Positions 29,111-31,004 of a stretch of 64,000 nt of DNA are shown here, piece after piece (within the stretch, counting starts at the first letter, position 1; every line of letters starts with the position of its first letter). The stretch lies in NCBI GenBank assembly GCA_946414395.1, contig CAMKOE010000001.1, forward strand, positions 186,001 to 250,000. The letters run 5' to 3'. The notes beneath the pieces were generated by a model. That model saw only the letters and a program-made list of their open reading frames with translations. It was not told the origin of the DNA and did not search any database. The position numbers and the translations under genes are program-made. The DNA comes from an uncultured Porphyromonadaceae bacterium. Lineage in GTDB: Bacteria; Bacteroidota; Bacteroidia; Bacteroidales; Muribaculaceae.

Positions 29111-29224
29111 AACTATCATTTGAGTAAGTGGGTTACCAACAGGTAGGAAATATTGAGTTTAAAACACTTAACTTTTTGATATTAACCTATTTTAACAGCG
29201 AACATAATTTTTGTTTGATAACAC

Positions 29225-29256
29225 TTGGTTACTATTGGAAACTTTATATACCTTTG
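29225..29256 (+). promoter_or_regulatory. promoter for HxlR gene
   Basis: TTGG (29225-29228), 20-nt spacer, TACCTTTG (29249-29256). The ATG at 29265 follows after only 8 nt, giving a leaderless or nearly leaderless mRNA. Confidence 0.6.
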
Positions 29257-29264
29257 CAACCGTT

Positions 29265-29621
29265 ATGAAAGAATTAAAGACAGAATATCTGAACTGCCCC
29301 ATCAGGCACGTGATTGACCGTTTTGGCGACAAGTGGTCACTGCTGGTGTTGTTTGCCTTGTGGAGAAACGAGACGGGCGTGATGCGATTCAGCGACCTGC
29401 ATCGCTTCATGAGCGACTGCTCGCAGAAGATGCTCTCGCAGACCCTCAAACGATTGGAAAAGAATCATCTGGTTCATCGCAAGCAGTATCCCGAAATCCC
29501 ACCTCGCGTGGAATACTCCCTGACACCGCTAGGCAAATCCCTCATGCCCAACATCATTCCGCTGGTGAATTGGGGGCTGGAGCACTTCAACGAAGTCACC
29601 GACGGGAAAGTCATTGTTTGA
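29265..29621 (+). CDS. HxlR-family winged-helix regulator
   Basis: A 118-residue DNA-binding protein. The frame is open from 29211, but the promoter box at 29249 and the family N-terminus (MKELKTEYLNCPIRHVIDRF) fix the start at 29265. HxlR hallmarks are the N-terminal CPIRHVIDRFGDKWSLLVLF, with Cys11, the recognition-helix region SQKMLSQTLKRLEKNHLV, and the wing PPRVEYSLTPLGKSL. Some family members sense reactive electrophiles or quinones through this conserved Cys. The divergent cupin gene is the probable target. The 3' end overlaps the convergent membrane protein gene by 11 bp. Confidence 0.92.
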   Translation: MKELKTEYLNCPIRHVIDRFGDKWSLLVLFALWRNETGVMRFSDLHRFMSDCSQKMLSQTLKRLEKNHLVHRKQYPEIPPRVEYSLTPLGKSLMPNIIPLVNWGLEHFNEVTDGKVIV

Positions 29622-30015
29622 CAACAAATACTAAGATGAAGAGCGCTAGCAGCGCGCAATAAGCGATCAGTGAGGGTACTAATGGCAACAGTGCCCTTCC
29701 TGTCGATTGATATTTCCTGTAGATCCTAGCACTCAAGAACACCATTGCCACCAGCACAATTGAATAGAAATTAATTACGACTAGAATCACATACTCCCAA
29801 CCCTGAAAGAGCATTGAAATCCAGATGGAAGCAAATGCGACAAAAGGCGCGGCAACGACAGGCAGAATGCTGACTGCATTGGCTAGCGAGAGCCACTTGG
29901 GCAATTTCTTACCTTTATGCAACCACCTGTAAACCAAGTATGGACAAACAATCAGTACGGCCAGTATAAACAATCTGACCAAGAGGACTTCTATTGTGCT
30001 CAGTGATAAATCCAT
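29611..30015 (-). CDS. small membrane protein of unknown function
   Basis: A 134-residue protein with four hydrophobic segments (LLVRLFILAVLIVCPYLVY, AVSILPVVAAPFVAFASIWI, YVILVVINFYSIVLVAMVFL, LVPSLIAYCALLALFILVFV) and a basic loop HKGKKLPKW after the first. No family recognised. The ATG at 30015 is preferred over the in-frame TTG at 30021. It overlaps HxlR tail to tail by 11 bp. It lies 89 bp downstream of the Nim-like gene on the same strand and may belong to that transcript. Confidence 0.65.
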   Translation of the reverse strand: MDLSLSTIEVLLVRLFILAVLIVCPYLVYRWLHKGKKLPKWLSLANAVSILPVVAAPFVAFASIWISMLFQGWEYVILVVINFYSIVLVAMVFLSARIYRKYQSTGRALLPLVPSLIAYCALLALFILVFVVKQ

Positions 30016-30104: not shown

Positions 30105-30599
30105 TTATCTATGGGCGGCGACCATTTCGATGGCTTGCTTGCCGGTGATGTGCTCGATGTCAAGACGCAGCATGAGCACACGGGAAAAGTCCTTGTCGAT
30201 CTCGCGCTGCAGGCCCGCATGATCGTGCGGCGCATGGCGAAGTCCCAGCCGGCGCAGTGCCGCCAGCCGCTCGGCATCATCCTCAATGACGTGGATTAAG
30301 CCGAAGGCGACAACGCTCCTGAAGTGGGTCGTGAATGTCTCGGGATGAACTTCATCCTGGGCAATGACACAGAATGAGCAACGGGAATCGCTGCGGATGG
30401 CGTCTACCTTGTGACCCTGGATTGCCGAGTGGAAATAGAGGTGACCGTCGGCATAGACATGGCTCAAGGGTACCGTATAAGGGTATCCGCCGTCACCCAT
30501 AACGGCCAGCACGCCCGATGTGGCCTGCTGCAAGATGTCGATACACTCTTCACGGGATAACTGCTGCCTGGAGCGGCGCATGGGTCTGAAAGTATCCAT
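30105..30599 (-). CDS. Nim-like flavin-binding (PNPOx-fold) protein
   Basis: A 164-residue split-barrel protein of the pyridoxamine 5'-phosphate oxidase-like superfamily, nearest by eye to the NimA/5-nitroimidazole resistance group: MRRSRQQLSREECIDIL, then GVLAVMGDGGYPYTVPLSHVY, LYFHSAIQGHKVDAI and SFCVIAQDEV. Members bind FMN or a related cofactor and reduce small molecules. The preferred ATG at 30599 is 2 nt after the stop of the SMR exporter gene, so the two are cotranscribed and subject to the same leader attenuator. Most chromosomal Nim-like proteins are not proven resistance factors, so no resistance is claimed. Confidence 0.88.
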   Translation of the reverse strand: MDTFRPMRRSRQQLSREECIDILQQATSGVLAVMGDGGYPYTVPLSHVYADGHLYFHSAIQGHKVDAIRSDSRCSFCVIAQDEVHPETFTTHFRSVVAFGLIHVIEDDAERLAALRRLGLRHAPHDHAGLQREIDKDFSRVLMLRLDIEHITGKQAIEMVAAHR

Positions 30600-30601
30600 A
30601 T

Positions 30602-30925
30602 TTATGATAATAACTTGAGTCCGATGATTGAACAAATGAGCGTTGTAATGAAGAACAGACGCCAAAAAGTCGCAGGTTCATGAAAAAACACGATGCCAAC
30701 GATGACTGTGCCAACAGCGCCGATGCCAGTCCACACGGGATAGGCCGTGCCCAAGGGGAGCGTTTGTGTTGCACGTGCCAGCAATCCCATGCTCAGGAAG
30801 GTGAATGCCAGGAAACCGCCCATCCATGCCCACCATTCCAGTCCACTGACGGCGCGGGCCCGCCCCAAGCAATAAGTGAAACCGACTTCACACAATCCTG
30901 CAATTATCAAGATAAACCAGTTCAT
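30602..30925 (-). CDS. SMR-family exporter, SugE/Gdx-like
   Basis: A 107-residue, four-helix small multidrug resistance protein. The essential glutamate is E13 (IIAGLCEVGF). The segment LPLGTAYPVWTGIGAVGT and the end IIGLKLLS resemble SugE/Gdx guanidinium exporters more than EmrE. The family works as dual-topology dimers exchanging protons for guanidinium or other cations. The frame is open to 31072, but the preceding 49 residues would be encoded by a leader containing a terminator; the ATG at 30925 fits the family length. It is preceded by a candidate attenuator (30932-30996) and followed 2 nt later by the Nim-like gene. The substrate is inferred from subfamily resemblance only. Confidence 0.9.
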   Translation of the reverse strand: MNWFILIIAGLCEVGFTYCLGRARAVSGLEWWAWMGGFLAFTFLSMGLLARATQTLPLGTAYPVWTGIGAVGTVIVGIVFFHEPATFWRLFFITTLICSIIGLKLLS

Positions 30926-30931
30926 AGCATG

Positions 30932-30996
30932 AAAAAAAGTCTTGCGCCTACTTGAGGGCTGCAAGACTATCTCGGCGTCTCCTTCCTGAGGCGCAA
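30932..30996 (-). promoter_or_regulatory. candidate transcription attenuator/riboswitch before SMR gene
   Basis: Minus-strand leader. Terminator: GTCTTGC (30967-30961), bulged A, GCC (30959-30957), 8-nt loop, GGC (30948-30946), GCAAGAC (30945-30939), then seven T (30938-30932). The U-run ends 6 nt before the SMR ATG. The upstream segment TTGCGCCT (30996-30989) is perfectly complementary to AGGCGCAA (30949-30942) in the terminator's 3' half, giving a mutually exclusive stem; at least six of these pairs lie inside the predicted transcript. No leader peptide ORF with ATG is present. I could not match it to known guanidine riboswitch classes. Confidence 0.6.
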
Positions 30997-31004
30997 CAAA
31001 GTTA
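30997..31004 (-). promoter_or_regulatory. -7 box (TAACTTTG) before SMR leader
   Basis: Exact TAnnTTTG on the minus strand, placing the transcript start near 30993. No good -33 element is visible, so read-through from the acetyltransferase gene may also supply transcripts. Confidence 0.5.

Follow-up and report, generated by a model that had tools for sequence, protein, structure and literature searches.

A conserved leader RNA before SMR exporter and Nim-like genes of Bacteroidales, a candidate for a new riboswitch class

Introduction

The window, i.e., the whole stretch of 64,000 nucleotides analysed here, comes from an uncultured Porphyromonadaceae bacterium and carries on its minus strand a gene for a SugE/Gdx-like SMR exporter followed by a Nim-like gene. 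The nim gene family is otherwise known for nitroimidazole resistance. Between a promoter-like box and the SMR start codon lies a short leader with a terminator, which a first-pass annotation, made from the letters alone, had read as a candidate riboswitch-type attenuator. The locus raises the question of what this leader is: a ligand-responsive RNA, the binding site of a protein, a DNA element next to the promoter or simply the end of the upstream transcription unit.

Results

Architecture and folding of the leader in the window

The following features were assigned.

30997..31004, minus strand: -7 box TAACTTTG of the TAnnTTTG type (sequence read; consensus from the accessible text of PMC7366714)
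30989..30996, minus strand: P1 5' arm TTGCGCCT (sequence read; P1 covariation)
30975..30985, minus strand: conserved core, 5' side, GAAGGAGACGC (conservation among relatives)
30962..30974, minus strand: P2 hairpin CGAGATAGTCTTG (covariation)
30957..30967, minus strand: terminator 5' arm with a bulged A at 30960, overlapping P2 and the core (sequence read, folding)
30954..30961, minus strand: conserved core, 3' side, CAGCCCTC (conservation among relatives)
30942..30949, minus strand: P1 3' arm AGGCGCAA, shared with the terminator (sequence read)
30939..30948, minus strand: terminator 3' arm (sequence read, folding)
30932..30938, minus strand: run of seven T (sequence read)
30602..30925, minus strand: SMR exporter gene, SugE/Gdx-like, 107 aa (PF00893, E 3.3e-20)
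30105..30599, minus strand: Nim-like gene, 164 aa (PF12900, E 1.7e-24)

P1 of the window is formed by TTGCGCCT (30996-30989) and AGGCGCAA (30949-30942), which pair at 8 of 8 positions; this is the upstream 8-nt segment that the first-pass annotation had described as complementary to the 3' half of the terminator. The 10-bp terminator stem that it had reported was likewise present on the minus strand, where GTCTTGC-A-GCC (30967-30957) forms 10 pairs with GGCGCAAGAC (30948-30939), leaving one bulged A, and the seven T end (30932) six nt before the SMR start codon (30925). The -7 box was found as TAACTTTG at 31004-30997 (minus strand). A mini reading frame, AUG-CUA-UGA (30922-30930, minus strand), overlaps the SMR start codon and was also seen in several terminator-bearing close relatives. 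The near-invariant GAAGGAG of the window and its relatives resembles a Shine-Dalgarno sequence and is too distant from the start codon to act as one; such sequences are thought to be little used by Bacteroidales.

The hairpin with its T-run folded at -18.1 kcal/mol versus -7.1 kcal/mol for shuffled sequences (z -5.2; 0 of 200 as good), and the window's longer leader folded with z -3.0 versus shuffles (0 of 200 as good). A simple consensus terminator scan did not list this terminator, which we attribute to the bulged A. The aptamer stretch alone folded as P1-core-P2 at -17.1 kcal/mol, with no advantage over shuffled sequences (z -1.1; 28 of 200 as good). When downstream bases were added, the terminator fold won (-24.7 kcal/mol), using the same strands as the aptamer: its 5' arm takes the 3' arm of P2 and CAGCC, and its 3' arm takes the 3' arm of P1. 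Since the 8-nt complement is P1, aptamer and terminator are mutually exclusive in the window, and folding points to an expression platform of this kind in the window's subclade. Because the aptamer is also transcribed first, this is the plan of an ON riboswitch. A ligand would hold P1 and the core together and would keep the 3' arm of P2, the core and the 3' arm of P1 out of the terminator, so that RNA polymerase would go on into the SMR and Nim genes, whereas a ligand-free leader would fold into the more stable terminator. Control in the window's subclade would thus be in the ON direction.

Relatives of the leader in Bacteroidales

SMR matches were obtained in 28 of the 101 genomes searched, and in 13 of the 24 SMR loci whose upstream region was inspected the same block, GCCUUAG AAGGAG(A/U)CGCCG...GCAGCCCUCA..AGGC, was found directly after the -7 box. 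A covariance model, R1, was built from these 13 leaders. It found matches at genus level in 24 of 101 genomes (L054 was judged false), at family level in 55 of 297, at order level in 12 of 393 and at phylum level in 4 of 395, the last being the window's own genome and three weak matches in unrelated contexts (L087, L088, L089). A second model, R2, matched 2 of 149 genomes of the class, i.e., the own genome and the weak match L252. In these genome sets, occurrence of the motif outside Bacteroidales was not supported, as all phylum and class matches beyond the own genome were weak.

An exact-pattern scan of named genomes returned at least 119 stretches, of which at least 100 were judged real. 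Among the matches listed, 80 stretches were titled and 66 of these were real, all with Bacteroidota names except L133, a Lachnospiraceae MAG whose SMR resembles that of Bacteroidales L166. The motif set comprised at least 155 sites (at least 100 from the pattern scan and 55 from model searches, some genomes being in both), at least 127 of them distinct, and among the matches listed nearly all sites judged real were in Bacteroidales records. Left out were the weak model matches L054, L087, L088 and L089, 19 of the 119 pattern-scan loci and the single viral locus L209; the latter two groups were judged off-target from their flanks and from having no SMR, Nim or MATE match downstream. The off-targets L092, L099, L109, L126, L128, L151, L152, L167, L205 and L208 share one stretch, which is probably conserved coding sequence since it is nearly identical across Hymenobacter, Xanthomonadales and others. 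Plasmid and phage records gave no motif match.

The relatives have in common an RNA of about 50 nt, P1 - GAAGGAGwCGC - P2 hairpin - CAGCCCUC - P1, placed about at the transcription start. Among the matches listed, TAnnTTTG was found upstream at 117 of 127 distinct sites, and at 104 of these 117 it stood 13-14 nt from GGAG. Since the accessible text of PMC7366714 gives TAnnTTTG as the -7 element of promoters in Bacteroides, transcripts should begin at or just before P1.

Covariation and conservation

Among the matches listed, P2 was 11-13 nt long at 123 of 127 distinct sites and 31, 40, 40 and 55 nt at four. The long hairpins (L067, L068, L074, L077) contain inserts that resemble partial repeats of their own P2 and core. 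A leader peptide was not supported, as P2 occurs with 11, 12 or 13 nt and a frame running through it would be shifted; the first-pass annotation had seen none either. Pairs 1-3 of P2 were standard in 55, 56 and 56 of 56 distinct hairpins, and pairs 3 and 4 together in 98 of 112 cells, compared with at most 82 in 10,000 shuffles. P1 occurred in many variants (GCCU/AGGC, GCUU/AAGC, GUCU/AGAC, ACCU/AGGU, UCCU/AGGA, GUCC/GGAC and others). At least four P1 pairs were formed at 112 of 127 distinct sites (shuffled mean 87.5, at most 96 in 200 shuffles) and at least five at 46 (shuffled mean 32.2, maximum 45); only three pairs were found at 11 distinct sites and none at 5. At six or more pairs there was no excess (12 distinct sites versus a shuffled mean of 10.5, maximum 19), so that P1 is a short helix.

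In a model-fitted alignment of 100 sites chosen from 126 usable distinct ones, which leans toward the model, 83.1% of cells were paired versus 73.0 shuffled, the covariation score was 0.378 versus 0.195 shuffled and at most 0.140 slid, and 124 cells were changed on both sides versus 58. The number of pairs with two-sided change was not above the shuffled one in this alignment (7 versus 6.3). RNAalifold added core pairs (AGG/CCU, G/C and C/G), which remain unproven because they hardly vary. The core bases were near-invariant also in the 34 of 100 alignment rows that came from model searches, the model itself favouring such bases; part of the core conservation follows from how the pattern scan and the model select sites. 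The first-pass annotation had proposed to look for conserved leaders with covarying stems upstream of SMR homologues. P1 and P2 covaried above shuffled controls, so this expectation held, and conserved covarying RNA structure, as looked for in a riboswitch, was found in the 5' leader.

Expression platform among relatives

The terminator is common to the window, L037, L040, L042, L045 and L047 and to the named counterparts L173, L182, L098 and L114, with an interrupted T-run in L040/L182. The perfect 8-nt match is peculiar to the window; L037, L040, L042, L045 and L047 keep 5-6 pairs by eye. L124 carries GCAGCC...GGCUGC followed by T6, and L138 has a similar stem with the T-run a few bases further. 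This stem is possibly an independent terminator; the fold of L124 was not better than shuffles (70 of 200 as good). In most other motif members no terminator was seen. A general anti-aptamer hairpin found no support across the family, its mean energy being close to that of shuffles (-5.78 versus -5.74 kcal/mol, n=126), and neither did translation control by start-codon access, because the change had no consistent sign among 107 members (15 up and 12 down; in swaps 13-16 up and 5-7 down). With no terminator visible in most members and no general platform found, this mechanism can be followed in the window's subclade alone. The attenuator of the first-pass annotation therefore stood in part: the terminator with its competing 5' segment is real in the window. 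Beyond the window's subclade, however, it was seen in a single weaker case, and the conserved object is an aptamer-like core rather than the terminator, the competing segment being P1.

Genes downstream of the motif

The nearest solved structure to the SMR of the window was Gdx-Clo (6wk5, E 1.6e-19). Its Nim-like protein scored 234.6 bits against the NCBIfam equivalog NimIJ, under the curated cut-off of 270, and the Nim-like proteins of eight relatives (129.9-256.7 bits) were also under the NCBIfam equivalog cut-offs, so 'Nim-like' is the safe name. Among the matches listed, the first gene at the 127 distinct sites was SMR in 115, Nim-like in 4, MATE in 3 and unclear in 5 (3 with no gene recognised, 2 on contigs that were too short). 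At L114, a Nim-like-first site, much of the SMR is missing. Before merging, MATE came first at 14 of 179 sites, a number that includes off-targets and duplicates; these loci were hidden (14 to 3) because identical leaders were merged. The MATE protein was under the NCBIfam equivalog cut-offs of its models, yet its best E was 8e-57. Three unrelated gene classes with a common theme stand right behind the motif, as looked for in a riboswitch.

Among the 103 SMR-first sites with at least 700 downstream bases, a Nim-like gene came next in 61 and not in 42. In a sample of 198 genomes of the order, all four close Nim relatives (57-100% identity) adjoined the motif, and ten distant ones (31-38% identity) were not beside it. 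Among the SMR loci, 32 were examined (with L015 and L223 denoting one place): four had the motif, each together with Nim, and the other 28 had neither the motif nor a Nim match in the about 3.3 kb covered; many of their SMRs were 60-72% identical to that of the window. On a tree of 123 SMR proteins, whose resolution was poor (68 of its 120 inner branches were open), the motif label needed 7 changes versus 27.9 shuffled. E13, W16, S42, Y59 and W62 of Gdx-Clo are presumably the residues of the Gdx binding site. E13, S42, Y59 and W62 were kept in 92/92 motif SMRs, and position 16 was F in 92/92, as it was in 22 of the 25 SMRs that belong to this wider clade but lack the motif; W at this position was found in six more distant Bacteroidales SMRs. 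Upstream of the motif-less SMRs L014, L217, L221, L222, L226 and L230, repeats of the kind TTTTTGTCAAATGYAAAA or TTATCAAATGTAAA were seen, which look like a candidate transcription-factor operator. Near the two genes, the window also contains a 134-aa ORF (29611-30015, minus strand), hydrophobic by eye and with no Pfam or NCBIfam match, and a convergent HxlR-type regulator gene (29211-29621, plus strand).

Known RNAs and prior descriptions

The first-pass annotation had recognised no guanidine class in the leader, and the whole Rfam 15 library, guanidine classes included, gave no credible match there: the sole minus-strand overlap with E up to 10 was mir-4003 (15 bits versus a cut-off of 70). 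Over the whole window no match reached its gathering score, and at the motif in 11 other loci none was found. The models of guanidine-I, -II and -III (RF00442, RF01763, RF01068) were each run on 41 related genomes and matched none of them. About 440 bases upstream of one motif, a cobalamin riboswitch was found (L058:789-1060; 58.7 bits, above the family cut-off).

Searching upstream of sugE genes, Lenkeit et al. (2020) described GGAM-1 (guanidine-IV) to GGAM-6 (PMC7736828). In its accessible text, the lineages given exclude Bacteroidetes, metagenome-derived genomes being ignored for this purpose, the five other motifs are reported without guanidine binding, and MATE exporters are named with guanidine-IV too. 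The accessible texts of PMC9788692, PMC9574504, PMC8040213, PMC11109978, PMC8632094, PMC6429828 and PMC11089507 describe no such motif. The scope of this search was open-access main texts; in these main texts the motif was not described and no paper joined a riboswitch with nitroimidazole, efflux and Bacteroides.

Discussion

The leader of the window belongs to a real, conserved RNA family of Bacteroidales of about 50 nt, consisting of P1, a near-invariant irregular core and the P2 hairpin. Our preferred reading, to which we give a probability of roughly 0.6, is that this RNA serves as the aptamer in a new class of riboswitches, which would sense a small toxic compound dealt with by SMR/MATE exporters and a Nim-like enzyme. 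As a best guess, the ligand would be either a small, planar, guanidinium-like cation or a nitro-/amino-heterocycle. For the more specific proposal that a gut compound is sensed which is reduced by the Nim-like enzyme and exported by SMR/MATE pumps (e.g., a nitro-/amino-heterocycle or a substituted guanidinium), the odds appear about even.

A narrower case of the same explanation, a strict fifth guanidine class with guanidinium as ligand, is doubtful. The kinship of the SMR to Gdx-Clo with its four retained residues, the occurrence of MATE exporters with guanidine-IV (accessible text of PMC7736828) and the missing matches to guanidine-I, -II and -III in 41 relatives speak for it, whereas W16 is replaced by F in 92 of 92 motif SMRs, the motif is missing at 28 of 32 SMR loci examined, most of which are likewise of the F16 type, the motif tracks the Nim-like gene more closely than the SMR, and the other sugE-linked motifs of that study did not bind guanidine. 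The conserved RNA could instead be the site of a stress-sensing RNA-binding protein, an antiterminator or translational regulator. A conserved core with a hairpin would suit protein binding, and neither the hairpin nor the start-codon access test found a common expression platform; the three different gene classes downstream argue weakly in the other direction, and we regard this alternative as unlikely. A DNA element immediately following the promoter (operator or early pausing signal), for which the near-constant distance to the -7 box (13-14 nt at 104 of 117) would speak, is improbable, since P1 and P2 covary and P2 tolerates inserts, up to 55 nt in total, with its base still paired. That the leader merely ends transcription of the upstream acetyltransferase gene, as an unregulated intergenic terminator, is very improbable: the terminator is real and lies downstream of that same-strand gene's stop codon, but it follows a promoter-like box of its own, the core is kept where no T-run terminator is seen and the sequence upstream of the -7 box differs among relatives.

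If the aptamer reading is true, Bacteroidales, one of the major gut bacterial orders, would have a riboswitch class typical of them, and this class would join SMR pumps of the Gdx type, a MATE pump and Nim-like enzymes in one regulon. Its ligand would point to the natural substrate or job of Nim-like proteins and possibly to a natural inducer of relatives of nitroimidazole resistance genes. As the RNA is small, sits at about +1 and has a simple terminator in the window's subclade, it is directly testable in vitro.

Comparison with known systems

According to the accessible text of PMC7736828, GGAM-2 to GGAM-6 are, like the present motif, sugE-associated RNAs with no ligand assigned; the difference noted lies in their reported lineages (Actinobacteria, Beta-/Alphaproteobacteria, Methyloceanibacter, Selenomonas). 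Guanidine-I, -II and -III are also commonly found upstream of sugE-type exporters (same text), whereas their models match neither the window nor any of the 41 related genomes. The pair of ACGR-loop hairpins that makes up the guanidine-II motif is absent from the window leader. Guanidine-IV (GGAM-1) comes closest in context as described in PMC7736828, being a leader RNA before SMR (sugE) and MATE genes that acts by transcription termination, as would the leader in the window; its consensus differs, the new motif having no Rfam match at the leader, and a Nim-like gene is not named with it in the accessible text. In the window, one strand serves both P1 of the aptamer and the terminator, as in terminator-type ON riboswitches; outside the window's subclade the terminator has just one weaker counterpart.
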